Origin: Candidatus Aminicenantota bacterium
GTDB taxonomy: Bacteria; Acidobacteriota; Aminicenantia; Aminicenantales; UBA4085
Assembly (NCBI GenBank): GCA_003141555.1
Contig: PLMN01000022.1
Coordinates: forward strand, 53,215-96,540
Direction of reading: 5' to 3'
Length of the DNA: 43,326 nt
A program made the translations under genes and the position numbers. Shown here piece by piece: positions 14,361 through 31,843 of this stretch (positions within the stretch are counted from its first letter, which is position 1; the number at the start of each line of letters is the position of its first letter). A model generated the notes under the pieces. That model was given only the letters and a program-made list of their open reading frames with translations, did not search any database and had not been told where the DNA came from.

Positions 14361-17300
14361 TCAGCGGGCGAGGAGGCCGCGGAGCGCGGCCCCGGTGGCC
14401 GAGCCCGGGCAGGCAGCCACGGCGGCCGGCGGGCCGGCGGCCACGAGGGCCCCGCCCGCGTCGCCGCCCCCGGGGCCGAGGTCGATGACCGCGGCCGCCC
14501 GGGCGATGAACCGCGGGTCGTGCTCCACGGCGACGAGGGTGTGGCCGTCCCGGATCAGGCGGGCGAAGATCTCGAGAAGCCGGGCCGTGTCGTCGGCATG
14601 GAGCCCGGACGTCGGCTCGTCGAAGAGGTACAGGACGGGGCCCGGGGCGGGCTTCATCAGCCCGGCCGCGAGCTTGAGGCGCTGGGCTTCGCCTCCCGAG
14701 AGCGTGTCGAGCGGCTGGCCGAGCCGGAGATAGCCGAGGCCGATCTCGTCGAGCGCGGCCAGGGCCCCGGCCAGGGGGCGCGGCTCGGGGAAGAACGAGC
14801 GGGCCTCGGAGGCGGTCAGGTCCAGGACGTCGGCGATCGTCTTGCCCCGGACGGCGACCTCGAGAATCTCGGGCCGGTAGCGCCGGCCGCCGCAGTCCTC
14901 GCACGGCGTCAGGACGTCGGCCAGGAAATCCATGCTGATCCGGGTCAGGCCCGTCCCGCCGCACGTCTCGCACCGGCCCTCCCGGGACAGGTACGAGAAG
15001 TGGGCCCGGCCGAACCCCCGCCGGCGGGCCTCCTCGGCCGCGGCGAAGATCGTCCGGACCGGGTCGAACAACCCGAGATACGTCGCGGGCGTGCTCAGAG
15101 GCCCGCCCCCCGGAGGCGACGGATCGACGGCGATAACGCCCGCGAACCGCTCCAGTCCTTCGATGCCGGCGCAGGACACGGGCTTCCCGGCCCGGGCCGA
15201 GGCGAGCAGGACGTCGAAGACGAGGCTCGATTTGCCGCTTCCCGAAACGCCGGTGACGGCGGTCAAGCCGCCTCCGGGGATGTCGACGTCGATCCCGCGC
15301 AGGTTATGGGCCCGCGCCCCGCGAATGCGGACCCCGGGGCCGGGGCGGACGGGGAGGGGCGGAAGATCGGGCGTCCGATCCGCGAGCAGCCGGCCCGTGG
15401 CCGAGGCGGCCGAGGCGGCGAGGTCCCGGGGCGCGCCTTCGGCGACGATGGCCCCGCCGCCGCGGCCCGCGCCGGGTCCCATGTCGATGACGTGGTCCGC
15501 CGCCGCGATCACGTCAGGGTCGTGCTCGACGGCCACGACGGTGTTCCCGAGCCGGGTCAATTCGCGGAGAAGCCCGACGAGCTTCTCCGTGTCGCGGGGA
15601 TGGAGGCCGGCGGTCGGCTCGTCGAGGCAATAGGTGATGCCGGTCAGCCGGGCGCCGAGCTGGCCGGCCAGCCTGAGCCGCTGGGCTTCCCCGCCCGAGA
15701 GGGTCGAGGAGGGACGGTCGATCGCGAGATAATCCAGGCCCATGTCGCGGACGAGCTCGAGCCGCCTGAGGATCTCGCCGCGCACGGCGTCCAGGACGGA
15801 CCGGACTCTCTCCTCCCCCGGCCCCGCGGCCGCGTCCCTGAAGAAGGGGATGGCCTCGCGCGCGGTGAGGGCGGAGAGCTCGGCGATCGTCCGGCCGAGG
15901 ACGCGCACGGCCAGAGCCGCGGGCTTCAGGCGCCGGCCGCCGCACTCCGGGCACGGGCCCTCGGACATGAGGGCCCGCAGGGCTTCGCCTCGATGATCGG
16001 CGTGCTTGCGCTCGTACTCTTCGTCCACCAGGGCGGCGAACCCCTTCCAGGGGCCGTGAAAGCGATGCTCCCCGGCGCGCTTGCCGCGGCGATAGGACCA
16101 GACGATCTCGTAGGTCCGGCCGCCGCTGCCCCGCATGGCCAGCCGCCTGGCCTTCTCGTCGAGGTCCCGGTACGGCTTCGACAGGTCGAGGCCCGCCGCG
16201 TCGGCGGCCGTCCGGAGGGCGGCCAGAAACTGGCCATGCGGCTCGCCGTAGTAGCGGCCGGTCTTGGTCCCGTCGAGGGCGCCGTCGAACAGGGATTTTC
16301 CCGGGTTGGTCACGAGCTTGTCCGGGTCGCAGGTCGTGAGGACGCCGAGGCCCTTGCAGCGGGGGCAGGCGCCCTGTTCGTGGTTGAACGAGAACAGGCT
16401 GGCCCGGAGCGGCCGTTCCGGCACGCCGGCCGCGGTGGAGCCGGCCCGGGCGAAGAGGAGGCGATAGTAGTCGTAGATCTCGGTCATGGTTCCCACGGTC
16501 GAGCGCGGGTGGTGCCCCGCCGCGGCCCGGCTGACCGCCACGGGCGGGGTCAGGCCGGTCGCCGCGGCGAGATCGGCCCGGCCGCCCTTGGAGATGAGCC
16601 CGCGGACATAGGCCGAAAAGCTCTCGATGAACCGCTGTTGCGCCTCGGCGAAGAGCGTGTCGAAGACCAGCGAGGATTTGCCGCTGCCCGACGGGCCGGT
16701 GACCACGGTCAGGCGCTTGAATGGGATCCGGACGTCGAGATTCCTGAGGTTGTGGGTGGAGACCCCCGCGAGCGCGATCGGCGGCTCTTCGACGGCTCCG
16801 AAGCGGGGACGGCGAGGCGCCTCCGGCGGAACGACCGGGGCGGGGGCCAGGGCCTTGGCCAGGGCGCGGCCGGTGAGCGAGCCTTCGACCGCGGCGACCT
16901 CCTCCGGCGGGCCGCAGGCGACGATCGATCCGCCCCGCTCCCCGCTTCCCGGCCCGAGGTCGATCACCCGATCCGCCGTCTTGATGAAATCCGGATGGTG
17001 CTCGATGGCGATGATCGTGTTTCCCTTGTCGACGAGCGCCTGGAGCGACGAGATCAGCACGCCCACGTCGTGGAGATGGAGGCCCGTCGTCGGCTCCTCG
17101 AGGATGTAGAGCGTCTCGCCGGAGGACGGGCGGGCGAGCTCGGCGGCCAGCCTGATGCGCTGAGCCTCGCCCCCGGACAGGGTCGCCGAGCTCTGTCCGA
17201 GCTTGAGGTAGCCGAGGCCGAGGCGGGCCATCGCCTCGAGGATGCGCTTCAAGGGAGGCAGATCGGCGAAGAAGGCTGCGGCCTCGTCCACGGACATCTC

Positions 17301-19316
17301 GAGCACATCGTGGATCGTCTTCCCCCGGTAGAGGACCCGGAGCGTCTCGTCGTTGAAACGGCGGCCGTCGCAGGCGGGGCAGTCGATGTCCACATCACCC
17401 AGGAAATGCATCCCGATCCGGATCAGGCCTGCGCCCTGGCAGGTCTCGCACCGGCCGCCCGCGACGTTGAAGGAAAAGCGGCCCTTCCCCCAGCCGCGGG
17501 AGCGCGAATCCTCGAGCCCGGCGAAGAGGTCCCGGATGCGATCGCTCAACCCGGTATAGGTCGCGGGGTTCGACCGCGGCGTGCGGCCGATCGGCGCCTG
17601 GTCGATCTCGATGACCTTGCCCATCCGCCCCTCGATCCGCAGCCCTTCGGCGTCGGCGGCCGGCCCTTCATCCCCGTCACGGAGCCGCCGGGCCAGGATC
17701 CCGCGGACGAGCGTCGCCTTTCCAGCCCCCGAAACGCCGGTCACGACGTTGAACGCGCCCAGCCGGAACTCGACGTCGATCCCCTTGAGGTTGTGGAGGT
17801 GGGCCCCGCGGATGGCGATCGACCCCCGCCCGGAGCGCCGCTCTCCCGGCGCCGGCGCGGCGATGCGGCGGTCGCCGAGGAGGAAATCGCGCGTGGCGCT
17901 CGCGCCGCGCGACAGGCGGGCGAGGCCCTCGGGGGGGCCGCTGAACAGCACCCGGCCCCCGTTCTCGCCGGCCCCGGGTCCTAAATCGATGAGGTGGTCG
18001 GCGGCCCGCATCACGGCCTCGTCGTGCTCGACGACGACGATCGTGTTCCCCGCCTCGCGCAGCGACTCGAGGACGCCGAGGAGCTTTTCGGTGTCCGCGG
18101 GGTGGAGGCCCATCGTCGGCTCGTCGAGGATGTAGGTCACGCCGCGCAGGCCGCCGGTCACCTGGGCGGCGAGGCGGAGGCGCCGGGCGTCGCCCGCCGA
18201 GAGCGTGTCCGATTCGCGGTCGAGGGCCAGGTGGTCGAGGCCGAGGCGGAGGAGGACCGTTGTCCGCTTCAGGAGGGCGTCGCGGATGGGGAGTCCGGCC
18301 GGCTTCTCGGCGTCGGACGGAACGAGGTCTCTGAAGAAGCGGTCGAGGCGCCCGAGCGGGAAAGCGCTCATGTCCGCGATCGAAAGGCCGCGGAACGTCA
18401 CCTGGAGCGCCTCGGGCCGCAAGCGCCGGCCGCCGCAAGCCCGGCAGGGGAGGGTGCGGGCGAAGCGGAGGATGTTCTTGTTGCGCTTGCCCGTCAAGGT
18501 GGCGTCCATGATGGGCAGGATGCCTTTGTAAAATCCTTCCTGGCGGGGCCGGGGGGTGATCCCTTTCCAGCGCAGCCGCGATTCGAGGGGGTGCTTGCCG
18601 TAGGCGATACGGATCCGATCGCTGCCGTTGAGGACGACGTCCCGCTCGTCGTCGGTCAGGTCCTTCCAGGGGATGTCCACGCTGAAGCCGTGGGCCCGGC
18701 AGACCTGGTCGAGGACGCTCATCGTGACCTGGGAATAGATGATGTAGCCGCTCGGCGTGGTGATGGCCAGGGCGCCCTGGCGGAGCGTTTTCGCGGGATC
18801 GGAGACGAGGAGGGCGGGATCGATCCGGTCCTCGACGCCCAGGCCGCGGCAGGCGGGACAGGCGCCGTGGGGCGAATTAAAGGAAAAAAGGCGCCGCTGC
18901 GGACGGACTCCGGGAGGGGCTTCTCCCAGGCGGGCGTACAGGAGGCGGAGGATGTCGTGGATCTCGGTCAGCGTGCCGACCGTCGAGCGCGGCCCGGCCG
19001 GCGGCGTCGGCCGCCCCAGGGCCATCGCCGGGGATAAGCCGGCGAGGCGGCCGACGTCGGGCCGACGGAGCTTGCCCATGAACTGGCGGGCGTGGGCCGA
19101 GAACGACTCCAGGTAGCGGCGCCGGGCCTCCTGGTAGATCACGTCGAAGGCGAGCGTCGACTTGCCCGAGCCCGAAACGCCGGTGATGACGGTGAGCCGG
19201 TTGTGCGGGATATCGACGTCGACCGCCCGGAGGTTGTTTTCGGATGCTTCGCGGACGACGATGCGCCCGGCCTCGGGATCGAGGGGCGGTCCCGAGGCTG
19301 CGCTACTTGACGACAT
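14361..19316 (-). CDS. Tandem-duplicated UvrA-like ATPase, 1651 aa, lacking UvrB-binding domains
   Basis: A cytoplasmic ABC ATPase built of two complete UvrA-like units (about residues 15-820 and 835-1651), so four ATPase heads. Walker A motifs: GVSGSGKST (46-54), a deviant GVSGAGKAT (about 530), GPSGSGKSS (about 875), GVSGSGKSS (about 1360). Signatures: degenerate LSAGD (about 370), then LSGGEAQR near 711, 1205 and 1537. Walker B is ILEEPTTGL rather than DEP in head 2. UvrA zinc modules are kept (CPACRGLG, CETCQGAG, CPRCKGLG, CETCGGTG). Between LLYARLG (125-131) and LFSFN (143-147) only about 12 residues remain where UvrA1 carries its UvrB-binding domain; unit 2 is the same near 957-970. It is therefore UvrA2-like in each half. 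The start overlaps the TupA stop by 14 nt. DNA damage surveillance or drug tolerance is possible; standard excision with UvrB is not supported. Confidence 0.9.
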   Translation of the reverse strand: MSSSSAASGPPLDPEAGRIVVREASENNLRAVDVDIPHNRLTVITGVSGSGKSTLAFDVIYQEARRRYLESFSAHARQFMGKLRRPDVGRLAGLSPAMALGRPTPPAGPRSTVGTLTEIHDILRLLYARLGEAPPGVRPQRRLFSFNSPHGACPACRGLGVEDRIDPALLVSDPAKTLRQGALAITTPSGYIIYSQVTMSVLDQVCRAHGFSVDIPWKDLTDDERDVVLNGSDRIRIAYGKHPLESRLRWKGITPRPRQEGFYKGILPIMDATLTGKRNKNILRFARTLPCRACGGRRLRPEALQVTFRGLSIADMSAFPLGRLDRFFRDLVPSDAEKPAGLPIRDALLKRTTVLLRLGLDHLALDRESDTLSAGDARRLRLAAQVTGGLRGVTYILDEPTMGLHPADTEKLLGVLESLREAGNTIVVVEHDEAVMRAADHLIDLGPGAGENGGRVLFSGPPEGLARLSRGASATRDFLLGDRRIAAPAPGERRSGRGSIAIRGAHLHNLKGIDVEFRLGAFNVVTGVSGAGKATLVRGILARRLRDGDEGPAADAEGLRIEGRMGKVIEIDQAPIGRTPRSNPATYTGLSDRIRDLFAGLEDSRSRGWGKGRFSFNVAGGRCETCQGAGLIRIGMHFLGDVDIDCPACDGRRFNDETLRVLYRGKTIHDVLEMSVDEAAAFFADLPPLKRILEAMARLGLGYLKLGQSSATLSGGEAQRIRLAAELARPSSGETLYILEEPTTGLHLHDVGVLISSLQALVDKGNTIIAIEHHPDFIKTADRVIDLGPGSGERGGSIVACGPPEEVAAVEGSLTGRALAKALAPAPVVPPEAPRRPRFGAVEEPPIALAGVSTHNLRNLDVRIPFKRLTVVTGPSGSGKSSLVFDTLFAEAQQRFIESFSAYVRGLISKGGRADLAAATGLTPPVAVSRAAAGHHPRSTVGTMTEIYDYYRLLFARAGSTAAGVPERPLRASLFSFNHEQGACPRCKGLGVLTTCDPDKLVTNPGKSLFDGALDGTKTGRYYGEPHGQFLAALRTAADAAGLDLSKPYRDLDEKARRLAMRGSGGRTYEIVWSYRRGKRAGEHRFHGPWKGFAALVDEEYERKHADHRGEALRALMSEGPCPECGGRRLKPAALAVRVLGRTIAELSALTAREAIPFFRDAAAGPGEERVRSVLDAVRGEILRRLELVRDMGLDYLAIDRPSSTLSGGEAQRLRLAGQLGARLTGITYCLDEPTAGLHPRDTEKLVGLLRELTRLGNTVVAVEHDPDVIAAADHVIDMGPGAGRGGGAIVAEGAPRDLAASAASATGRLLADRTPDLPPLPVRPGPGVRIRGARAHNLRGIDVDIPGGGLTAVTGVSGSGKSSLVFDVLLASARAGKPVSCAGIEGLERFAGVIAVDPSPPGGGPLSTPATYLGLFDPVRTIFAAAEEARRRGFGRAHFSYLSREGRCETCGGTGLTRISMDFLADVLTPCEDCGGRRYRPEILEVAVRGKTIADVLDLTASEARSFFPEPRPLAGALAALDEIGLGYLRLGQPLDTLSGGEAQRLKLAAGLMKPAPGPVLYLFDEPTSGLHADDTARLLEIFARLIRDGHTLVAVEHDPRFIARAAAVIDLGPGGGDAGGALVAAGPPAAVAACPGSATGAALRGLLAR

Positions 19317-20152: not shown

Positions 20153-22180
20153 TTACGCTTTGAGCTTCGGAAACTCGGTCACCCGGATCTTTGCGCATCC
20201 GTAAGGAATAAGCGTCAGGTCCTCGAGCGGCTCCTTCGACTCCGCGTCGCCCGGCGCGATCTCGCCCGCCCAGCCGTGGGCCAGCTTCCAGGTCGGGATC
20301 TTGCGGCCCTTGGCCTTGGCCGCGACGCCCGCCCCCTCGGGCGAGAACGGGCTCTCCCCGATGGGCCGCTCCTCGAAGGCGATGCTCTTCTCCGGCGCGG
20401 CTTCGTCGACGACCAGGCCGTAGTTCCAGGGCGTCGAGGGCCGGACTTCGAAATCGCCGTGGGGGAGCTCGCGATGCGGCTTGTCCGCGTTGACCCGGGT
20501 CCAGGTCCCGCCCAGCGCGAGCGAATACACGAGCGGCCCGCGCTCGACGGCGACGGCGCCGTTGTAGCGGCGGCTCGCCCGAGCTTTCATCGGGAATCGG
20601 AGGACGAGCGTGTCGCCGTCCTTCCATTCCCGCTCCGTCCGATAGAACGATCCCGCCCGGAGCGAGACCTCGCTGCCGTGGGGCGGGACGAGCGTCGCGT
20701 CCTCGGCCCAGGCGGGCACGCGGAGGAGGAGCGGGAACCGGGCGGGCTTGTCCGGCCGGACGGTGATCGTCAGGCGGTCGCGGAACGGGTAGTCGGTCTC
20801 GCAGGCCACGCGCACGGCCGTCCCGCGCGCGTCGAACCTGGCTTCGCTCGGCGCATAAGCCGCGGCCGCGAGGCCGCCGTCGGGCGTCTTCATCCACAGA
20901 TGGGCGGCGAACTTGGGCCAGCCTTGGTGCATGTTGGACGTGCAGCAGCCGAAATTCGGCTCGAGACCGAAGAGGTTCGATTCCGGCCCGTTCGTCGTCC
21001 ACATGTGATCGGGGTTGATCGTACACTGGACCTGGTTCACCTGCTGGTCGTACTGGTGCGACCACATATCGGGGGCAAGGGTGGCGGGCAGGGCGTTGAA
21101 CGCGACGCGCTCGAGCCGGTCGGCGTAGGCGGCCTCGCCCGTCAGGGAAACGAGGTGCTCGAGCGAATACATGAATTCGACCACGGCGCAGAGCTCGGTG
21201 CCCTGGACGGGGTTCTTGCCGGCGAGGCACTCGTCGCCCGTGAACATTCCGGTCACCAGGCCGTGGTGGCGGTCGAGGACTTCGAGGATCTTCGCCGGGA
21301 AGGCGCGCTCGTCCTCCCGGCGGGTGAGGCGCCAGGTCAGGGCATAAGCCTTGGGGGCCATGCCCGTGTTGACCACGTGCTTGTCCCATTTCCAGAGGCC
21401 GCGCCGCGGCGTGGGGACGGTCACGTCTTCGCCGCCGTAGAAAGTCCGGTAGTCGAAGCCCTGGGCCTGGAGCTTATGGGCCAGGTCGAGGAGCCAAGCT
21501 TCGCCCGTCTTTTCATAGGCGTAGTAAGTCGGGATGAGGCCTTCGAACCAGCGGAACCTGCCCCAGCCGAAAAGCGGGGTGCGGTCGAGCGCGGCCAGGA
21601 CGGCCTTGAGGTTGGCCGCGACGGCGTCGAGGACCCGCGCGTCGCCCGTTGCCTCGTGGAATTGGACGAGCATCTTGTTCGCCAGCAGGATCGCCCAGAG
21701 GTCGTAGGGCTTGGCGGCCGCGTCGACGGGGTAGGGCGCGTACCAGCCGTCGGCCCTCTGGCTCTTGACGATGTGGTCGATGTAGCCCTTGATCCGCTCC
21801 TTCAGCGGCTTGTCGTCCAGGATCCAGGCCAACGGGATCGCCCCGTCGAGCCAGTACGGGGCGCGCTCCCACCCTTCGGCCGAGCCGCCGAACCACTGGC
21901 TTTGGCCCACGTCGGGCCAGAATTCGTCGAGATGGCCCGTCAGCCCGTCGGCCTGCTGGCGCAGCTGGCGGAGGAGCCAGCCCTTCGGAAGGATGGAGCC
22001 CAGGGGGAGCGGCCGGAATGCCGGCTCCGCAAGTCCCCCGGCCGGCGCCTGGGTGCGGGGTTTCGGACCGCCGGTCACGCGGCGCTTCGCCGGTTCGGAG
22101 TCCGCCCGGCCCGGAGCGGCGATGACGGCGGCGCCGGCGGCCATGCCGGTCAGGAATTCGCGGCGATTCAAGTGGGGCAT
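20153..22180 (-). CDS. GH127-like (DUF1680) glycoside hydrolase, Tat-exported
   Basis: A 675-aa exported enzyme of the beta-L-arabinofuranosidase/DUF1680 group. The leader NRREFLTGMAAGAAVIA has twin arginines (Tat type). The body is an (alpha/alpha)6 barrel, with GTELCAVVEFMYSLEHL (likely catalytic Glu region) and FGCCTSNMHQGWPKF, whose adjacent cysteines match the zinc-binding Cys cluster of characterised GH127. A C-terminal beta-sandwich follows. The start at 22180 is chosen because AAGGAGGAGAAC precedes it and the Tat leader follows; a longer frame to 22477 lacks these. Substrate specificity cannot be fixed: arabinofuranosides are typical, others are known in related families. Confidence 0.82.
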   Translation of the reverse strand: MPHLNRREFLTGMAAGAAVIAAPGRADSEPAKRRVTGGPKPRTQAPAGGLAEPAFRPLPLGSILPKGWLLRQLRQQADGLTGHLDEFWPDVGQSQWFGGSAEGWERAPYWLDGAIPLAWILDDKPLKERIKGYIDHIVKSQRADGWYAPYPVDAAAKPYDLWAILLANKMLVQFHEATGDARVLDAVAANLKAVLAALDRTPLFGWGRFRWFEGLIPTYYAYEKTGEAWLLDLAHKLQAQGFDYRTFYGGEDVTVPTPRRGLWKWDKHVVNTGMAPKAYALTWRLTRREDERAFPAKILEVLDRHHGLVTGMFTGDECLAGKNPVQGTELCAVVEFMYSLEHLVSLTGEAAYADRLERVAFNALPATLAPDMWSHQYDQQVNQVQCTINPDHMWTTNGPESNLFGLEPNFGCCTSNMHQGWPKFAAHLWMKTPDGGLAAAAYAPSEARFDARGTAVRVACETDYPFRDRLTITVRPDKPARFPLLLRVPAWAEDATLVPPHGSEVSLRAGSFYRTEREWKDGDTLVLRFPMKARASRRYNGAVAVERGPLVYSLALGGTWTRVNADKPHRELPHGDFEVRPSTPWNYGLVVDEAAPEKSIAFEERPIGESPFSPEGAGVAAKAKGRKIPTWKLAHGWAGEIAPGDAESKEPLEDLTLIPYGCAKIRVTEFPKLKA

Positions 22181-22256
22181 GTTCTCCTCCTTGGGCAGAA
22201 AATCATTCTGGCACAGGACCGCGGGCAAGGCAAGACGGCGAATCGCGCGGGCCGGG

Positions 22257-23318
22257 CTAGAAGCGTGCGGGGTCCAGGACGACGTGCTTGATCGCCTCGC
22301 GCTTCCACGTGTACGTGACATGGACCGCGCCGTCGGCCGCCTGGATGACGGCGGGATAGGAATATTCGCCCGGCTCGTCCTCCAGGGTGAGGACGGGCGT
22401 CCAGGCTTCGCCGTCCTTGGAAACGGCGACGTTGAGCGGGGTACGAGCGGTTTCCGAATGATTATAGACAAGGACATGGCGGCCGTCGTGGAGCGTCACG
22501 GCGTCCGTGCCTGCGTTGGGATTGGGAAGGGAGGTCAGGCGGACGCCGGTCCAGGTCCGGCCGCCGTCGGCGGAGCGCGCTTCCCAGATGCGCCCCTGCC
22601 GGCTCCGCCCGAGGGCCAGGAGGCCGCCTCCGCGCAGGAAGAGGAGGCTGGGCTGGATGGCGCCGACGGCGGTTCCGTCGTTGATCGCTTCGGTGCGCGT
22701 CCAAGTGAGGCCGAAATCGGAGGTTCGCTCGAAGTGGACGCGCCAGCCCCGGTCTTCCGTGCTCGATCCGCAGAGGATGTCTCCTCCGGGAAGGGCGACG
22801 GGCTTGTTCTTGATCGGGCCCAGGATGCCTTCGGGCAGACGCCGGGCCGGCGACCAGGTGGCGCCTCCGTCCGCGCTGGCCGTCATCATCCCCCACCACT
22901 CGCTCGGACGAAGCCCCACCTTATAAAAGAGAAGAAGGGGGCCGCGGTCGGCTTGAAAGAGGACGGGATTCCAGCAGGGCATGATGGGCGGAAGAGCAGT
23001 ACTCTGGCCCGGAGGGAGGGGCTGCATGCCGTTGGCGACTTCGACCGGCGCGGTCCAAAGCCCTCCCGCCTTCCGGGCGAACCAGATGCCCACGTCCGAA
23101 GCGCCCTCGCGCGTCCCCCCGAACCAGGCGGCGGCGAGCGTCCCGTTCGCGAGTTCGACGATGGTCGAAGCGTGGCACTGGGGGGTGGGCGGCGCGCTGG
23201 GAGGGAAGACAAATTCGGCGGCGACGATGGGGGACGGCGGCCGTCCGGCCGCCGCCGATAGAAGCGCCAAACCCGTGAACGCAGCGATCGTAAAGATCCG
23301 CCGAGGCGATAACCTCAT
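22257..23318 (-). CDS. Exported sialidase-like (BNR/Asp-box) protein
   Basis: A 353-aa protein with a signal peptide (about residues 8-25). It has a beta-propeller pattern with Asp-box motifs SADGGATW, SDFGLTW, SADGGRTW and SKDGEAW, and an N-terminal block CHASTIVELANGTLAAAWFGG typical of the BNR/sialidase-related family in bacterial polysaccharide clusters. The full catalytic set of GH33 sialidase (Arg triad, Tyr/Glu pair) was not verified, so sialic acid is not asserted. It sits 76 bp upstream of the GH127-like gene on the same strand; the two probably act on the same glycan. Confidence 0.75.
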   Translation of the reverse strand: MRLSPRRIFTIAAFTGLALLSAAAGRPPSPIVAAEFVFPPSAPPTPQCHASTIVELANGTLAAAWFGGTREGASDVGIWFARKAGGLWTAPVEVANGMQPLPPGQSTALPPIMPCWNPVLFQADRGPLLLFYKVGLRPSEWWGMMTASADGGATWSPARRLPEGILGPIKNKPVALPGGDILCGSSTEDRGWRVHFERTSDFGLTWTRTEAINDGTAVGAIQPSLLFLRGGGLLALGRSRQGRIWEARSADGGRTWTGVRLTSLPNPNAGTDAVTLHDGRHVLVYNHSETARTPLNVAVSKDGEAWTPVLTLEDEPGEYSYPAVIQAADGAVHVTYTWKREAIKHVVLDPARF

Positions 23319-24214: not shown

Positions 24215-24523
24215 ATGTTCATATGGGTCTTTCATCGTCTGAGCGGTCTTTTACTGATCCTTCTTCTGGGCCTTAAATTTTTCACCTCGTTTTTCCTGAT
24301 GACCAAGGGCCAGAAACCGGATTGGGCGATCATCCTCCACACCAATCCGCTGACGGACACGTTCCTCATCGTCCTCGGCGTCTACCACGCCTTCTACGGG
24401 CTGAGGACCGTCCTGATCGACCTCGGGCTGCGCAAGGAAAAGCTCCTGTTCTGGATCTTCACTGGCCTCGGCACCGCCACCGCCTCCTCCCTCCTGCTCA
24501 TCTACTTCACCAGGAATTACTGA
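24215..24523 (+). CDS. Succinate dehydrogenase/fumarate reductase membrane anchor, single small subunit
   Basis: A 102-aa integral membrane protein with three predicted helices (about residues 9-28, 46-66 and 78-98). HRLSG at 7-11 matches the SdhC signature of the first helix, and YHAFYGLRTVLIDLG (57-71) carries His58, the likely heme b ligand, followed by the family Arg/Asp pair. It is the only anchor gene: sdhA starts 3 bp after its stop. Classical complexes have either two such subunits or one five-helix subunit of about 200 aa. It would hold SdhAB on the membrane and bind quinone; it may work as a homodimer or with an unlinked partner. Confidence 0.85.
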   Translation: MFIWVFHRLSGLLLILLLGLKFFTSFFLMTKGQKPDWAIILHTNPLTDTFLIVLGVYHAFYGLRTVLIDLGLRKEKLLFWIFTGLGTATASSLLLIYFTRNY

Positions 24524-26238: not shown

Positions 26239-26964
26239 ATGAGCACCATTTTCAAAATCCTCCGGTTCGACCCTCCCAAGGACGAGCAGCCCCATTTCCA
26301 GGAATATATTCATACGCCCAAGCCCGGGGACACGATGCTCGAAGTTCTCAAGGACATCCGGGACCAACAGGACCCCTCGCTCTCCTTCCGGTACAGCTGC
26401 CGCGAGGCGGTCTGCGGGTCGTGCGCCCTGACGATCAACGGCGAGATCGGCCTGGCTTGCAGGACCCAGTTCGAGGCCCTCAAGACGGACGTGGTCGTCA
26501 TCGAGCCCCTGCCCAACCTGGAGATCATCAAGGACCTGATCGTCGACTTCAAGCCCTTCTGGGACGCCTATAACTACATCCAGCCCTACCTCCAGCCGGA
26601 GGGGGAAGCCCCGCCCAAGGGCCACTGCGTCGACGAGAAGGACATGGAGGAGGTCTACCAGTTCATCACCTGCATCCTCTGCGGCAGCTGCTATGCCGCC
26701 TGCCCGGTCGCGACCCGCGACGGGCGCTACCTCGGCCCCGCGGCCCTGGCCAAGCTCTACCGGTTCGCCATCGACCCGCGCGATAAGCGGCCGTGGCCGG
26801 CCCTGGCCCGGGTCGACAATCCGACCGGCGTCTGGGGCTGCGACACGGTCTTCCGCTGCAACGACGTCTGCCCGAAGGAGGTCCGCCCGGCCGACGGCAT
26901 CGAAGGCCTCCGCCGGCGGATGGTCGTCGGCCGGACCAAACACCTTTTTGGACGGAAAAAATGA
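26239..26964 (+). CDS. sdhB: Succinate dehydrogenase/fumarate reductase iron-sulfur subunit
   Basis: A 241-aa electron-transfer subunit linking the flavin to the membrane quinone site. The [2Fe-2S] ligands are Cys54, Cys59, Cys62 and Cys74 (SCREAVCGSC). The second domain has Cys145, Cys148, Cys151 and Cys155 (CILCGSCYAACP), then Cys201, Cys207 and Cys211, which together bind [4Fe-4S] and a third cluster of the [3Fe-4S] type. The stop overlaps the Rieske start by 4 nt (ATGA). The normal order A-B is kept, but a Rieske protein follows instead of another SDH subunit. Confidence 0.95.
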   Translation: MSTIFKILRFDPPKDEQPHFQEYIHTPKPGDTMLEVLKDIRDQQDPSLSFRYSCREAVCGSCALTINGEIGLACRTQFEALKTDVVVIEPLPNLEIIKDLIVDFKPFWDAYNYIQPYLQPEGEAPPKGHCVDEKDMEEVYQFITCILCGSCYAACPVATRDGRYLGPAALAKLYRFAIDPRDKRPWPALARVDNPTGVWGCDTVFRCNDVCPKEVRPADGIEGLRRRMVVGRTKHLFGRKK

Positions 26965-27419
26965 GAATCGACAACGCCTATTTCACCCGCCGCAAGTTCC
27001 TCAATTCGATCCTCGGCGGCTGGCTGGGCACCCTGGCGGTGACCTTCGTCAGCCCCATCGTCAAGTTCGTCTGGCCGCCCTATAAGGAGCCGGACGAGGT
27101 TAAGCTCGCCTTCGCCGACTTCGCCGGGATGAAGCCCGGCGAGGTCAAGGGCTTCCCCTGGGGAGCCAAGCCCGGACTGCTCAAGCGGGCCGAGGACGGG
27201 AGCTTCATCGCTTTCATAGGCGTCTGCAGCCACCTCGACTGCAACGTGAGCTGGATGGCCGACAAGAAGAAGTTCTTCTGCGCCTGCCATGAGGGCTGGT
27301 ACGACGAGAACGGGATGAATATCGCCGGTCCGCCGCCCAAGCCGCTCCGCCGGCTCGAGACCTCGGTCGAGGGCGAGGACTTCTTCGTCCGGAAGCCGGG
27401 GGCGGGAGCGAAAGCATGA
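26961..27419 (+). CDS. Rieske [2Fe-2S] protein of a bc/b6f-type complex
   Basis: A 152-aa membrane-tethered Rieske subunit. The N-terminus has a Tat-like TRRKFL followed by one hydrophobic segment (about 14-38). The cluster-binding domain has CSHLDC (Cys89, His91, Cys94) and CACH (Cys107, Cys109, His110): the four Fe ligands and both disulfide cysteines of bc1/b6f Rieske proteins. It takes electrons from quinol at the Qo site of cytochrome b. The start is set by the ATGA overlap with sdhB; its own stop overlaps the cytochrome b start (ATGA). A longer upstream frame would lie inside sdhB. Confidence 0.93.
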   Translation: MRIDNAYFTRRKFLNSILGGWLGTLAVTFVSPIVKFVWPPYKEPDEVKLAFADFAGMKPGEVKGFPWGAKPGLLKRAEDGSFIAFIGVCSHLDCNVSWMADKKKFFCACHEGWYDENGMNIAGPPPKPLRRLETSVEGEDFFVRKPGAGAKA

Positions 27420-28486
27420 AGATCGACATGAAAAAAGTCGGGGCCTGGTTCGATGATCGGCTGGCGCTGACCCCCATCTTCAAGTACATGACCAAGAAAG
27501 AGGTCCCCCAGCACGAGCACTCGATCTGGTATTACACCGGGAGCTCGATCCTCCTCTTCCTGGCGATCCAGATCGTGACGGGGATCATGCTCGCCCTGTA
27601 TTACAAGCCCACCCTCGAGGGGGCCAACGACAGCGTCGGCCGGATCATGACCGACCTGCCCCTCGGCTGGCTCGTCCGCTCGATCCACAGCTGGTCGGCG
27701 ACGTTCATGATCGCCTTCGTCCTGACCCACCTCCTGGCCATCTGGTTCACGAAGTCCTACCGCAAGCCGCGGGAGGCGACGTGGATGACGGGGATGATGC
27801 TCCTCGTGGTGTCCATGGTCTTCGGATTCACCGGCTACCTCCTCCCGTGGGACGACCTGTCGCTCTCGGCGACCAAGGTCGGGACGAACATCCCCAACGC
27901 GATCCCCGTGGTCGGAAAGTGGGTGACCCAGTTCCTCCGCGGGGGCGACGACGTCACGGGCGACACCCTGACCCGCTTCTTCCTCTTCCACGTCTGCATC
28001 CTGCCGCTGGTCATCTTCGCCATCCTGGCCGTCCACATCCTCCTCGTCCAGAAGGAGGGGATGAGCGTCCCGCTCGAAGCCGAGGTCAAGAAGAAGAAGG
28101 TCCCGGCCCTCCCGTTCTGGCCGAACTTCATCCTCCGCGAGGTCATGATCTGGCTCGTCCTCCTCGGGACGCTCCTGACCGTGGCCCTCGTCTTCGCCCC
28201 GACCCTCGGTCCCTCGGCCGACATGATGGCCCCCGCGCCCGCCGGGGTGAAGCCGGAATGGTACTTCCTGTTCCTGTTTCAGACCCTCAAGATCTTTCCG
28301 GGCAACATGGGGCCCGTCACGGGCGAATTCGTGGCCGTGGTCCTGATCCTCGTGGCCATCGTGGCGATCTTCTTCCTCCCGTTCATCGACACCAAGCCCG
28401 AGGGGAAAAAGGGGAGGATCATCAACTACCTTGGGGTTTTGGGCCTGATCTACGCGATCGTGTTCAGCATATGGAGCCTGTTATGA
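27416..28486 (+). CDS. Cytochrome b of a Rieske/cytochrome b complex, b6-type heme spacing
   Basis: A 356-aa membrane protein joining the b6-like N-terminal half and a subunit-IV-like C-terminal half in one chain. Heme ligands are His91/His105 in helix B and His192/His207 in helix D. The second pair is 15 apart, as in cytochrome b6, not 14 as in mitochondrial cytochrome b. The Qo-site motif is PEWY at 280-283, and GYLLPWDDLSLSATKVGT is the cd-loop block. It oxidises quinol with the Rieske protein upstream. No cytochrome c1 or f gene follows; a small membrane protein does, overlapping by 4 nt. A second ATG at 27428 could be the true start. Confidence 0.93.
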   Translation: MKIDMKKVGAWFDDRLALTPIFKYMTKKEVPQHEHSIWYYTGSSILLFLAIQIVTGIMLALYYKPTLEGANDSVGRIMTDLPLGWLVRSIHSWSATFMIAFVLTHLLAIWFTKSYRKPREATWMTGMMLLVVSMVFGFTGYLLPWDDLSLSATKVGTNIPNAIPVVGKWVTQFLRGGDDVTGDTLTRFFLFHVCILPLVIFAILAVHILLVQKEGMSVPLEAEVKKKKVPALPFWPNFILREVMIWLVLLGTLLTVALVFAPTLGPSADMMAPAPAGVKPEWYFLFLFQTLKIFPGNMGPVTGEFVAVVLILVAIVAIFFLPFIDTKPEGKKGRIINYLGVLGLIYAIVFSIWSLL

Positions 28487-28911
28487 GAGGGATCCGCATC
28501 GTCATCCTCGTCGCGTTCGCGGCCCTCGTCCTTTCGCCCCTGACGGCGGCGGCCCAGGTCCCCTCGTCGCCGGCCGCGAAGGCGAGCATCGAAAAGGAGC
28601 TGTCCCAGACGCCGGCCGCGCCTCAGGAGGTCAAGCCCGAGACCCAGTCGGCCGCGCCGGCCCCCGCCGTGAAGCCGGCCAAGAAGGTCCCGGAAAAGCG
28701 GACCGAGACGATCGTGCCGGCGTTCTCGGGCATCAAGGAACGGACGGCCGTCTTCGTGTTCTACGTCTGGCTGTGGCTTTCGATCGTCGTCCTGATCTAC
28801 TTCCTCCGGCTGTGGGTCAAGGAATCCGACCGGGTATACCACGCGAAATATTACGAGCCGGACGAGAGCCCGCGCAAGGCCAACCCGATGCCTCCCACCC
28901 TGGGAGATTGA
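28483..28911 (+). CDS. Small exported/membrane protein linked to cytochrome b
   Basis: A 142-aa protein with no recognised family. It has an N-terminal signal segment (about 4-23, RIVILVAFAALVLSPLTAAA), an Ala/Pro/Lys-rich and probably disordered stretch (about 25-80), one transmembrane helix (about 88-108, FVFYVWLWLSIVVLIYFLRLW) and a charged C-terminal tail with Tyr/Pro (residues 115-142). Its ATG overlaps the cytochrome b stop (ATGA), so it is likely a supernumerary subunit or assembly factor of the Rieske/b complex. It has no CxxCH heme motif, so it is not a c-type cytochrome. Confidence 0.7.
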   Translation: MRGIRIVILVAFAALVLSPLTAAAQVPSSPAAKASIEKELSQTPAAPQEVKPETQSAAPAPAVKPAKKVPEKRTETIVPAFSGIKERTAVFVFYVWLWLSIVVLIYFLRLWVKESDRVYHAKYYEPDESPRKANPMPPTLGD

Positions 28912-28988: not shown

Positions 28989-29240
28989 ATGGCCGAATTA
29001 CTCCAGAAGAAAAAAGGTCTCGGATCGGTCGTCATCAACGCGGAGCGGTGCAAGGGCTGCGGGTTCTGCGTGGAGTTCTGCCCGATGCGCTGCCTGGAGC
29101 TGTCCGAGCAATACAACGCCAAGGGATACCATCCTCCCGTGCTCTCCCTTCCGGAGAAGTGCACCGGATGCAACATGTGCGGGCTGGTCTGTCCGGACTT
29201 CGCCATCTACGGCTTCCTGTTCAAGAAGAAGCAAAAGTAG
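28989..29240 (+). CDS. korD: 2-oxoacid:ferredoxin oxidoreductase ferredoxin-like (delta) subunit
   Basis: An 83-aa protein with two [4Fe-4S] motifs, CKGCGFCVEFCP and CTGCNMCGLVCP, each of the CxxCxxCxxxCP form. It passes electrons from the TPP/Fe-S core to soluble ferredoxin. The start at 28989 follows AGAGGACTC; another in-frame ATG is absent close by. It stands at the head of the four kor genes (delta-alpha-beta-gamma), 9 bp before korA and 77 bp after the cytochrome b accessory gene. The gap includes GGGCCGCGGCCC, a palindrome of unknown role. Confidence 0.9.
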   Translation: MAELLQKKKGLGSVVINAERCKGCGFCVEFCPMRCLELSEQYNAKGYHPPVLSLPEKCTGCNMCGLVCPDFAIYGFLFKKKQK

Positions 29241-29249
29241 GAGACCGAC

Positions 29250-30410
29250 GTGAAAGCTGATCCGAAAGGCGTCATGACGGGCGCGTATTTCATCGACGGC
29301 GACCACGCCTGCGCCGAGGGGGCGATCGCCGCCGGTTGCCGGTTCGTGGCCGGCTACCCGATCACTCCCTCGACCGAAGTCGTGGAGCGCATCGCCGAGC
29401 GTTTCCCGCTGATCGGGGGGATGTTCATCCAGATGGAGGACGAGATCGCGTCCTCGATCGCCATCCAGGGCGGCGTCTGGGCCGGCAAGAAAGCCATGAC
29501 CGTGACGTCCGGCCCCGGGTTCTCCCTGATGATGGAGCATCTCGGCCTGGCGGCGATGACCGAGACTCCGTGCGTCTTCGTCGACGTCCAGCGCGCCGGT
29601 CCCTCAACCGGCCTCCCCACGCTCCCCGCCCAGGGCGACATGATGCAGGCCCGCTGGGGCTCGCATGGGGATTATGCCATCATCGCCCTCTGTCCCAACT
29701 CCCCCCAGGAATCGTTCAATCTGACGATCAAGGCCTTCAACCTCGCCGAACAGTATCGGGTGCCCGTCCTGCTGATGCTGGACGAGTGCGTAGGCCATAT
29801 GACCGAGCGGGTCGTCATTCCCCCGGCCGACCAGATCGAGATCACCCCCCGCCGCTATTGGGAAGGCCCGAAGGAGGACTTGCTGCTCTTCAAGGCGGAC
29901 AAGGACCTCGTGCCTCCCATGGTCAAGGCGGGCGACGGCTACAACATCCATGTCACCGGCCTGACCCACGACGAGCGCGGCTACCCGGACATGACCCCGG
30001 CCGCCCAGGAGAAGCTCGTCCGCCGCCTGGTGGACAAGATCCGGCTGAATGCGGACGCAATCGTCGAATACAAGGAAGATCAGGTGGAGGGGGCCGAGAT
30101 CGTGGTCGTGTCGTACGGCATCACCTCGCGCGTCGCGATCCCGGCGATCGAGCAGGCCCGGGCCGAGGGGATGAAGGTCGGCCACCTGCGTCTCATTACC
30201 GCCTGGCCGTTCCCCACGAAGCGGATCCGGGAGCTCTCGACCACGGTCCGGGGCTTCGTCGTGCCCGAGATCAACTTCGGCCAGATGGTCCGCGAGGTGG
30301 AGCGCTGGGTCGCCGGCCGGGCCCGGGTCCGGCTCGTGCCCCACGGCGGGGGTTCGGTCCACGACCCCAAAGACATCTACGCCGCCATCGCCTACGTGGG
30401 GAAGGGATAG
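29250..30410 (+). CDS. korA: 2-oxoacid:ferredoxin oxidoreductase alpha subunit (2-oxoglutarate type)
   Basis: A 386-aa subunit of the oxygen-sensitive enzyme that converts 2-oxoglutarate and CoA to succinyl-CoA, CO2 and reduced ferredoxin, or the reverse. The alpha signature YPITPSTEVVERIAE is present near residue 35, followed by the FIQMEDEIASSIAI substrate-side block and TSGPGFSLM. The start is a GTG at 29250, with GGAGACC upstream. The domain order and the separate alpha, beta, gamma and delta genes are typical of KorABCD. The oxoglutarate assignment is by similarity of the alpha/beta sequences and by SDH linkage; another oxoacid is possible. Confidence 0.88.
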   Translation: MKADPKGVMTGAYFIDGDHACAEGAIAAGCRFVAGYPITPSTEVVERIAERFPLIGGMFIQMEDEIASSIAIQGGVWAGKKAMTVTSGPGFSLMMEHLGLAAMTETPCVFVDVQRAGPSTGLPTLPAQGDMMQARWGSHGDYAIIALCPNSPQESFNLTIKAFNLAEQYRVPVLLMLDECVGHMTERVVIPPADQIEITPRRYWEGPKEDLLLFKADKDLVPPMVKAGDGYNIHVTGLTHDERGYPDMTPAAQEKLVRRLVDKIRLNADAIVEYKEDQVEGAEIVVVSYGITSRVAIPAIEQARAEGMKVGHLRLITAWPFPTKRIRELSTTVRGFVVPEINFGQMVREVERWVAGRARVRLVPHGGGSVHDPKDIYAAIAYVGKG

Positions 30411-30415
30411 CCGCC

Positions 30416-31291
30416 ATGACCGAAGAAACCATGGACACCGACATCAGCCTGCCCACCAATAGGGTGGAAGATTTCCTGCGCATGGAGCGCCTGCCCCACA
30501 TCTGGTGCCCCGGCTGCGGCATCGGGACGACGGTCAACTGCTTCGCCCACGCCCTCGATGCGAGCGGCCTCGACCTGAAGAAGGTCGCGATCGTCTCCGG
30601 CATCGGCTGCACCGGCCGCGTCGCGGGTTACATGAAGCTCGACTCGTTCCACACGACCCACGGCCGGGCGATCCCGTTCGCCACCGGCCTGAAGCTGGCC
30701 AATCCCGAGCTCAAGGTCGTCGTCTACAGCGGCGACGGCGATCTGACGGCCATCGGCGGCAACCATTTCATCCATGCCGCCCGGCGGAACGTGAACATGA
30801 CCGTGATCCTGATCAACAACTTCATCTACGGCATGACCGGCGGCCAGGTCGCGCCTACGACCCCCATCGGGGCCACGGCCTCGACGGCCCCCTACGGGAA
30901 CTTCGAGGAGCCGTTCAACCTGCCCTACCTCGCCGAGTCGTGCGGCGCGGTGTACGTCGCCCGCTGGACGTCCTTCCATGTCCGGCACGCGACCAAGGCC
31001 ATCAAGGACGCGCTCCTCAAGAAAGGCTTCTCCTTCGTCGAGATCATGGCCCCCTGCCCGACGCTCTACAGCCGGCGCAACCGCCTGGGCGATGGCCTCG
31101 ACCAGATGAAGTTCTACCGGGACAACAGCGAAATCCAGAACGGGGCCGACACGAAGACCGTCGGCCTGAGCTTCCAGGGCAAGATTGTCGTCGGCAAGTT
31201 CGTGGACAAGGAGAAGCCGACATACCTCGAATCGATGAACGCCTTCTATGCCCAAAAGCTCGGTGATCAGTTCACCCCTTACAAAGGATAA
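30416..31291 (+). CDS. korB: 2-oxoacid:ferredoxin oxidoreductase beta subunit
   Basis: A 291-aa TPP-binding subunit. IWCPGCGIGTTVNCF near residue 30 contains cluster-binding cysteines, GDGDLTAIGGNHFIHAARRN is the TPP-Mg motif, and NNFIYGMTGGQVAPTTP is the diagnostic family block. The start at 30416 is chosen by position 5 bp after the korA stop; a longer frame would overlap korA almost entirely. The enzyme makes or uses succinyl-CoA with CoA and ferredoxin together with KorA, C and D. Confidence 0.92.
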   Translation: MTEETMDTDISLPTNRVEDFLRMERLPHIWCPGCGIGTTVNCFAHALDASGLDLKKVAIVSGIGCTGRVAGYMKLDSFHTTHGRAIPFATGLKLANPELKVVVYSGDGDLTAIGGNHFIHAARRNVNMTVILINNFIYGMTGGQVAPTTPIGATASTAPYGNFEEPFNLPYLAESCGAVYVARWTSFHVRHATKAIKDALLKKGFSFVEIMAPCPTLYSRRNRLGDGLDQMKFYRDNSEIQNGADTKTVGLSFQGKIVVGKFVDKEKPTYLESMNAFYAQKLGDQFTPYKG

Positions 31292-31294
31292 GCC

Positions 31295-31843
31295 ATGGCC
31301 AGGACAGAGATCAAAATCGGCGGATTCGGCGGTCAGGGCATCATCCTGAGCGGGTATATCATCGGCCGGGCGGCGTCCATCTACGACGCCAAGTTCGCGA
31401 CCATGATCCAGGCCTTCGGCCCCGAGGCGCGGGGAAGCGCCTGCAGCGCCCAGATCGTTGTGGACGACCATGAGATCGCGTATCCTTACATCACCTCCCC
31501 CCGGATTATGGTCGTGATGTCGCAGGAGGCTTATACCAAGTTCTCGCCGGAGGTCGCCGAGGGCGGGATCCTGATCACCGAGGACGAACTGGTCAAGCCC
31601 CATAGCCTCCGCAAGGACCTGACCCACTATTCGATCCCGGCGACGCGCATCGCCGAGGAGCTGGGCCGGAAGATGGTCCTGAACATCGTCATGATGGGCT
31701 TCATGACGGCCGTCACCGGCCTCATCGGCGTCGAGGCCATGCGGAGCGCGGTGAAAGTCTCCGTGCCGCGCGGGACGGAGATGCTGAACTCCAACGCCTT
31801 CAACCGGGGCTACGAGTTCGGGCTCGGCCTCAAGCGGGCGTAG
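31295..31843 (+). CDS. korC: 2-oxoacid:ferredoxin oxidoreductase gamma subunit
   Basis: A 182-aa subunit beginning EIKIGGFGGQGIILSG, the hallmark of the gamma family, followed by MIQAFGPEARGSACSAQIV. It completes the KorDABC set, 3 bp after korB. The C-terminus is ordinary. After its stop comes a 210-bp gap with a REP-like inverted repeat and the terminator of the convergent gdhA; no separate terminator for the kor transcript is obvious. Confidence 0.92.
   Translation: MARTEIKIGGFGGQGIILSGYIIGRAASIYDAKFATMIQAFGPEARGSACSAQIVVDDHEIAYPYITSPRIMVVMSQEAYTKFSPEVAEGGILITEDELVKPHSLRKDLTHYSIPATRIAEELGRKMVLNIVMMGFMTAVTGLIGVEAMRSAVKVSVPRGTEMLNSNAFNRGYEFGLGLKRA

Follow-up and report, generated by a model that had tools for sequence, protein, structure and literature searches.

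A single three-helix anchor gene precedes sdhA

The window analyzed here, a stretch of 43,326 nucleotides from Candidatus Aminicenantota bacterium (assembly GCA_003141555.1, contig PLMN01000022.1), carries a succinate dehydrogenase (SDH) operon in which one small membrane-anchor gene is followed by sdhA, sdhB and genes for a Rieske iron-sulfur protein, a cytochrome b and a small membrane protein (Table 1). The anchor open reading frame (ORF) starts with ATG, and sdhA (565 residues) begins at 24527, 3 bases after the anchor stop codon. The anchor scored 28.7 bits against the Pfam family Sdh_cyt (PF01127; curated cut-off 25.8) and 34.1 bits in the genome search; it scored below the cut-offs of both the SdhC equivalog TIGR02970 (30.7 bits, cut-off 52.3) and the SdhD equivalog TIGR02968 (18.7 bits, cut-off 41.8). 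It has the features of the Sdh_cyt family, namely three transmembrane helices, an HR pair in helix I (residues 7-8), a heme His in helix II and a position adjoining sdhA. The initial annotation of the window had described one 102-residue three-helix anchor in place of the usual SdhC/SdhD pair, bearing both the SdhC-type HR motif and a YHAFYGLR block that contains His58. Both motifs are present, and the description is borne out by the ORF, the Sdh_cyt match, a three-helix structural model and the absence of a detectable second anchor.

The single-chain AlphaFold2 model, computed from the window anchor and 43 natural homologues, consists of three long helices (residues 2-28, 45-69 and 75-99), with a mean predicted local distance difference test score (pLDDT) of 94.3 and a predicted template modeling score (pTM) of 0.82. 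Plain hydropathy gave three segments in the window anchor and in 38 of 46 family rows, two in seven and none in one; these 46 rows include a frameshifted sequence (L078) and a garbled one (L086). The anchor is not a chance ORF, because 16 relatives from the same genus, family and order align over residues 1-102 at 66-89% identity and 18 columns are invariant across 44 single-anchor sequences. A truncated or misread gene was likewise ruled out, as all 44 complete rows measure 102-106 residues and have the starting Met at the same place.

Relatives of this length lie directly 5′ of sdhA at 43 loci besides the window, most of them titled Candidatus Aminicenantes. Named genomes supplied 45 loci, of which these 43 were used; with the window they form the 44-row set. 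L078, frameshifted in its record, and L086 were excluded from it, and L078 was kept among the 40 SdhB rows. Some loci duplicate G-labelled genomes (for example, L050 is G019 and L060 is G098), so that those counts are not summed. Seven more distant loci carry the depositors' titles Omnitrophica (two), Deltaproteobacteria, Vicinamibacteria, Planctomycetota, Thermodesulfobacteriota and Proteobacteria; L050 bears the title Clostridiales although it shares its contig with G019, a genome of the window's order.

Counting the window's own genome and those of the same genus, family and order, the anchor was found in 17 of 39 genomes, each time aligned over residues 1-102, and half of the order lacks this kind of SDH altogether. 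Across the phylum, 38 of 396 genomes matched the anchor profile at E 0.001, 10 of them scoring 165-187 bits and the other 28 no more than 40.5 bits; in the latter group all 20 loci that were read (of 28) hold two adjacent anchor genes. Among 384 genomes of the Omnitrophota, the phylum to which L079 belongs by title, 4 matched at E 1e-8, two being known single anchors (132-137 bits) and two being pairs (36-38 bits). The single-anchor form is rare and patchy, yet conserved where present.

Searches for a second anchor

The initial annotation had allowed for a partner encoded by an unlinked gene and proposed a genome-wide search for it. In the window's genome (3.79 Mb, 97.4% complete) this search detected no other anchor: Sdh_cyt gave one match above the cut-off, and none was found in the operon interior or in the 1 kb upstream. 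Sdh_cyt was also run on 30 genomes: 17 with a single anchor, made up of G098 and 16 of the order's 17, and 13 drawn from the 20 pair genomes. Exactly one match exceeded the cut-off in 17/17 single-anchor genomes (86-98% complete), and two or more did so in 13/13 pair genomes. G023, outside this set, also gave one match, as did each of ten further single-anchor genomes, nine of which were new since G420 is G019; seven of the ten are titled as other groups, and two more are one-contig chromosomes of about the size of the genome. Exactly one anchor above the cut-off was thus found in 27/27 single-anchor genomes. An SdhD profile built from 15 sequences found no other anchor in the same 17 single-anchor genomes, where it gave two further hits at E 0.2-0.3, and recovered both SdhC and SdhD in 4/4 pair genomes used as controls. 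An unlinked second anchor gene was therefore not detected by either profile, and the positive controls worked.

A very divergent second anchor that both profiles missed might hide among the matches below the cut-off that occur in several genomes. Such matches are seen in single-anchor and pair genomes alike, and the five that were read (in the window's genome, G013, G098, G003 and G422) include none that is anchor-like and none with a heme motif; two lie in permease-like frames and three have one hydrophobic segment. The match in the window's genome, at 12.5 bits, falls in a long multi-helix permease-like frame. Upstream of the anchor, no same-strand ORF with at least two hydrophobic segments and a heme motif was present within 1 kb at any of the 44 loci (for 37 of them, the available upstream sequence reached at least 600 bases); ORFs with at least two such segments occur at three of the 44, all without the motif. 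Set against these readings and the 13/13 pair controls, a hidden anchor gene of this kind seems very unlikely. Loss of a second gene in assembly gaps is also unlikely, as CP070750 (L059) and CP070825 (L064) are one-contig chromosomes, about as long as the genome itself, with one Sdh_cyt match above the cut-off each. In G010 (76% complete), SdhB and the small protein were found, but no anchor exceeded the cut-off.

Predicted heme ligands and possible origin of the anchor

The 44 single anchors were aligned with 21 SdhC and 21 SdhD sequences (20 pair loci and E. coli). The position of His58 is His in every row of all three groups (44/44, 21/21 and 21/21). Asp69 is also widely shared (44/44 single anchors, 19/21 SdhC, 19/21 SdhD), and Arg64 is found in 44/44 single anchors, 21/21 SdhC and 4/21 SdhD. 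Position 21 is Lys in 43 single anchors and Gln in one, and His in 20/21 SdhC and 20/21 SdhD. His42, Tyr61, Thr65 and Glu75 never vary in the single anchors and seldom or never occur in the pairs; Lys21 (43/44) and His42 (44/44) are peculiar to the single anchors, with Lys21 standing where the distal-heme His stood. Aligned with M. smegmatis Sdh2 (6lum), His58 corresponds to His C87 of that structure, and Lys21 to His C47. These two residues are ligands of hemes bP and bD, respectively, and each heme is held by one SdhC and one SdhD His (PMC7447783). The heme of E. coli SDH is likewise held by one His from each anchor subunit (PMC3290573). His58 would accordingly mark the proximal-heme ligand position and Lys21 the former distal-heme ligand position; judged by these alignments, the pair enzymes of the phylum have ligand sets for both hemes, of which the single anchor appears to keep the proximal one only.

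Because the single anchor keeps His58 without exception and known heme enzymes use one His per anchor, a second heme ligand is needed. The anchor might instead act as a single copy, in a minimal three-helix heterotrimer with no heme or an unusual one. The quinone site of known complexes is formed by SdhB and both anchors, which speaks against such an arrangement, and the invariance of His58 (44/44) is hard to explain without a heme. In its favor, there is one gene only, class D enzymes such as E. coli fumarate reductase lack a membrane heme (PMC10238741) and the redox activity of heme b is seemingly not essential in E. coli SDH (PMC3290573). On balance we consider a single-copy anchor rather improbable.

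To place the anchor among its relatives, a tree of 86 sequences was made by a quick method over 119 columns; the program cautions that the columns are few and the branches long. In this tree the single anchors group as one clade (Shimodaira-Hasegawa-like approximate likelihood ratio test, SH-aLRT, 99) on the SdhC side, and a split with SH-aLRT 98 sets that side apart from 20 SdhD, joined by a single row ordered as SdhC. At L093 the two genes show reversed likeness and were kept as ordered. The tree is an indication, and only that, that the single anchor descends from SdhC, so that SdhC would have been kept and SdhD lost. The best sequence match in the PDB was 6lum, at E 7.9e-07 to SdhC and 0.046 to SdhD. 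The anchor model superposes on the E. coli SdhC chain 7jz2_C with Z 10.5 (2.6 Å, 98 residues aligned) and on the SdhD chains 8gs8_D with Z 9.2 (2.1 Å, 83 aligned) and 2wdq_D with Z 9.1 (4.5 Å, 97 aligned). The sequence match to 6lum SdhC is the firmer of the two lines, and the superposition is supporting only.

The catalytic subunits were also inspected. SdhA carries an HSISAQGG stretch whose Gln we place, by the motif, at the type-defining position. Gln is said to mark the succinate-oxidising type there (PMC10308238). In SdhB of the window, the positions of E. coli Trp164 and His207 hold Arg and Asp; across the 40 single-anchor rows the first is Arg in 34, Lys in 3 and Trp in none, and the second is Asp in 34 and His in 6. 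Loss of Trp164 was considered as a mark of single-anchor enzymes and rejected, as four pair SdhB also lack it (Ala or Thr); His207 is kept in three of these four and is Val in one, and Asp at 207 is the special feature.

Linkage to Rieske and cytochrome b genes

A Rieske gene lies 3′ of sdhB at 39 of the 40 single-anchor loci whose contig extends beyond sdhB; at the exception, L077, a run of N follows sdhB and a Rieske-like N-terminus is visible. Cytochrome b is encoded at all 38 loci that reach far enough (L048, L055, L065, L073, L076 and L085 end too early for Rieske, cytochrome b or both). In contrast, neither was detected at E 1e-3 at the pair loci (0/12, covering 2.5-5.9 kb past the SDH genes and about 1 kb ahead of them; of the 13 regions taken, L124 did not reach far enough for the Rieske test). 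Neither a cytochrome c1 nor a cytochrome f gene was seen among the SDH, Rieske, cytochrome b and small-protein genes (window 26961-28911 and L042-L085). The anchor is a three-helix member of the SdhC/SdhD family, with no other member detected in these genomes, and is conserved directly 5′ of sdhA-sdhB-Rieske-cytochrome b; in most cases the small-protein gene comes next.

The small protein is the product of the first gene 3′ of cytochrome b in the window. Of its 29 sequences, 26 show a signal-like N-terminus and a C-terminal helix as their two hydrophobic segments, and three show a single segment. Among the 39 genomes of the order, the anchor is found in 17, SdhB in 19 and the small protein in 18, with almost the same distribution; in G015 a divergent SdhB is the only one of the three. 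Given this genome-by-genome co-occurrence with the anchor, the small protein may belong to a larger assembly. The suggestion in the initial annotation that it is the anchor's partner is unlikely, as it has two segments and no conserved His and was not seen directly 3′ of cytochrome b at L081 and L082.

Conserved His residues (at least 90%) were surveyed in the anchor, SdhB, Rieske protein, cytochrome b and small protein. They are H7, H42 and H58 of the anchor (44 rows), H91 and H110 of the Rieske protein (38 rows), which make up its cluster motif, and H35, H91, H105, H192 and H207 of cytochrome b (38 rows); none was found in the small protein (28 rows) or in SdhB (39 rows). H91, H105, H192 and H207 of cytochrome b fit its own four heme ligands.

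The Rieske/cytochrome b linkage deserves as much attention as the single anchor. It leaves room for a reading in which the membrane parts of the Rieske/cytochrome b/small-protein unit fill the place of SdhD, with SDH and a bc-type complex forming one standing assembly around a single anchor copy. The contrast between single-anchor and pair loci and the matching occurrence of anchor, SdhB and small protein speak for this arrangement. However, linkage of genes may reflect a pathway rather than contact, all of the conserved cytochrome b His except H35 suit that protein's own hemes, the Rieske and small proteins have no spare conserved His, and the small protein is missing directly after cytochrome b at the two loci named above. 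We regard such a shared assembly as possible but doubtful.

SdhAB lies on the inner face of the membrane and the Rieske domain on the outer face. Direct electron transfer from SdhB to the Rieske protein, an idea prompted by type E enzymes (PMC3578206), was set aside on account of these opposite faces.

Table 1. Genes of the SDH locus and of the adjoining 3′ stretch, by position in the window
Feature	Position	Strand	Evidence
Single three-helix SdhC-type anchor, 102 residues	24215..24523	+	Pfam Sdh_cyt, alignments, AlphaFold2 model
SdhA flavoprotein, 565 residues	24527..26224	+	TIGR01812, 741.6 bits
SdhB iron-sulfur subunit, 241 residues	26239..26964	+	NF004616, 256.4 bits
Rieske iron-sulfur protein, 152 residues, one N-terminal hydrophobic segment	26961..27419	+	PF00355
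Cytochrome b, 356 residues	27416..28486	+	PF00033, PF00032
Small membrane protein, 142 residues, two hydrophobic segments	28483..28911	+	
KorD-like ferredoxin subunit, 83 residues	28989..29240	+	operon context
KorA, 2-oxoacid:acceptor oxidoreductase alpha	29250..30410	+	NF006412, 573.3 bits, cut-off 411
KorB-like beta subunit	30416..31291	+	
KorC-like gamma subunit	31295..31843	+	

The first part of the cytochrome b resembles cytochrome b6 and its last part the cytochrome b C-terminal region or subunit IV. A pattern located the start of sdhA at 42 of 44 loci, and its distance from the anchor stop ranges from -4 to 106 bases. At the other two, the sdhA frame opens 81 bases past the end of the anchor gene (L053) or overlaps that gene's frame (L054); in both cases it extends far 5′ of the part that matches SdhA, which lies behind the anchor. 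The 2-oxoacid:ferredoxin oxidoreductase genes (window 28989-31843) also stand 3′ of the module in some close relatives, such as L042-L045, L047 and L058, and a similar set sits upstream of the module at L079. Elsewhere in the window, on the minus strand, 14361-19316 encodes a double-size UvrA of 1651 residues, several stretches of which match UvrA models strongly and which matches the 1809-residue form NF001885 more weakly, below its cut-off; 20153-22477 encodes a GH127-type glycoside hydrolase adjoining a BNR-repeat protein (22257-23318).

A proposed model of a homodimeric anchor

A second copy of the anchor is the simplest source of the missing heme ligand, because the rest of the surveyed module offers His residues of the cluster and of cytochrome b's own hemes, together with cytochrome b H35. 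A homodimeric anchor, one of the options in the initial annotation, has indirect support: SdhC and SdhD of ordinary pairs both have a His where the single anchor has His58 (kept in 44/44), and the anchor model superposes on chains of either kind. We propose, as a model to which we give about even chances, that SdhD was lost and that the SdhC-derived anchor forms a homodimer in which His58 and His58′ hold one heme. After the loss of sdhD in an ancestor, the anchor that remained would fill both the SdhC and the SdhD place, as two copies beneath one SdhAB. Helices II of both copies would meet across the membrane, each His58 providing one axial ligand of the one proximal heme b. No distal heme like that of the two-heme relatives would be left, because its ligand position is Lys21. 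Electrons would pass from succinate to flavin adenine dinucleotide (FAD) and on through the SdhB clusters until they reach a quinone site where SdhB borders the anchor, presumably built, by analogy with E. coli, with Arg8 of one copy and Asp69 of the other. The quinone reduced would probably be menaquinone, and the co-encoded Rieske/cytochrome b unit would then reoxidise the quinol. Lys21 and His42, toward the outer face, may make a second quinone site or a proton path, which is a guess.

Several points weigh against the homodimer. The membrane face of SdhB is asymmetric, so that one chain must suit two unlike places, and SdhD-type features are missing, with Arg64 where 13/21 SdhD have Trp and Leu70 where 14/21 have Tyr. 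Two Lys21 would, in the model, face each other at the former distal-heme site, which is odd. The His58 argument presumes a bis-His heme, and cytochrome b H35 or anchor H7 or H42 could serve instead. The descent from SdhC depends on a tree whose forks are unsure (119 columns, long branches) and in which neither the SdhC nor the SdhD rows form one group. As to the structural comparison, an unrelated designed bundle also scores Z 9.1, Z values below about 13 may mean little for helical bundles, and Foldseek E-values are weak (best 0.049). Finally, the loss of Trp164 from SdhB is not peculiar to single-anchor enzymes, given the four pair SdhB that share it.

If the homodimer model holds, two identical anchors suffice, and an SdhC/SdhD pair is dispensable for a working quinone site and heme pocket. 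A symmetric enzyme could then be compared with asymmetric ones, and the roles of SdhD, of the distal heme and of asymmetry itself become questions that can be asked. The Rieske/cytochrome b linkage points to a testable respiratory unit of uncultured bacteria. A further step, which we hold to be unlikely, would be a seventh complex II class in which a homodimeric three-helix anchor with the heme on its twofold axis is permanently assembled with the Rieske/cytochrome b complex of the same operon; one machine would then perform both succinate oxidation and quinol reoxidation.

Comparison with known complex II enzymes

Among the matches listed in a literature search (open-licence papers, by title and the start of the abstract), none concerned a single three-helix or homodimeric SDH anchor or this operon. 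Six classes of complex II are distinguished by their anchors: A, C and D have two anchors, B one five-helix anchor, E amphipathic anchors and F one six-helix anchor (PMC10238741). The initial annotation held that known complexes use two subunits or one five-helix subunit; both kinds exist, but the six-helix class F and the amphipathic class E have also been described (PMC10238741).

The enzyme of the window shares SdhA, SdhB, the SdhC fold and the proximal heme His with class A, represented by M. smegmatis Sdh2 (6lum) and the sdhC plus sdhD pairs of the phylum. It differs from them in having one anchor gene rather than two and Lys in place of the distal-heme His in 43/44 sequences, so that neither two different three-helix anchors (27/27 genomes) nor the ligand set for two hemes (position 21) was found. 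With class C (E. coli SdhCDAB and mitochondria) it has in common a three-helix anchor that superposes on E. coli SdhC at Z 10.5 and one expected heme. In class C, however, the two anchors are unlike, whereas here there is one anchor gene and one heme-His position is kept; moreover, E. coli SdhB Trp164 is absent in 40/40 rows and His207 in 34/40. The single anchor gene and the order anchor-A-B recall class B (the Wolinella FrdCAB type), but class B places five helices in one chain and holds two hemes (PMC10238741), in contrast to the three helices and 102 residues of the anchor described here. Class F (M. smegmatis Sdh1) likewise has one anchor gene and, in a different way, a Rieske cluster nearby. 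There the six-helix anchor itself carries the cluster (PMC10238741), whereas here the anchor has three helices, contains no Cys in the window, and the cluster belongs to a separate bc-type subunit. The gene set fits none of the six classes as they are described in the available part of PMC10238741, and on gene content it points to a new form of complex II, for which a homodimeric anchor is our prediction.
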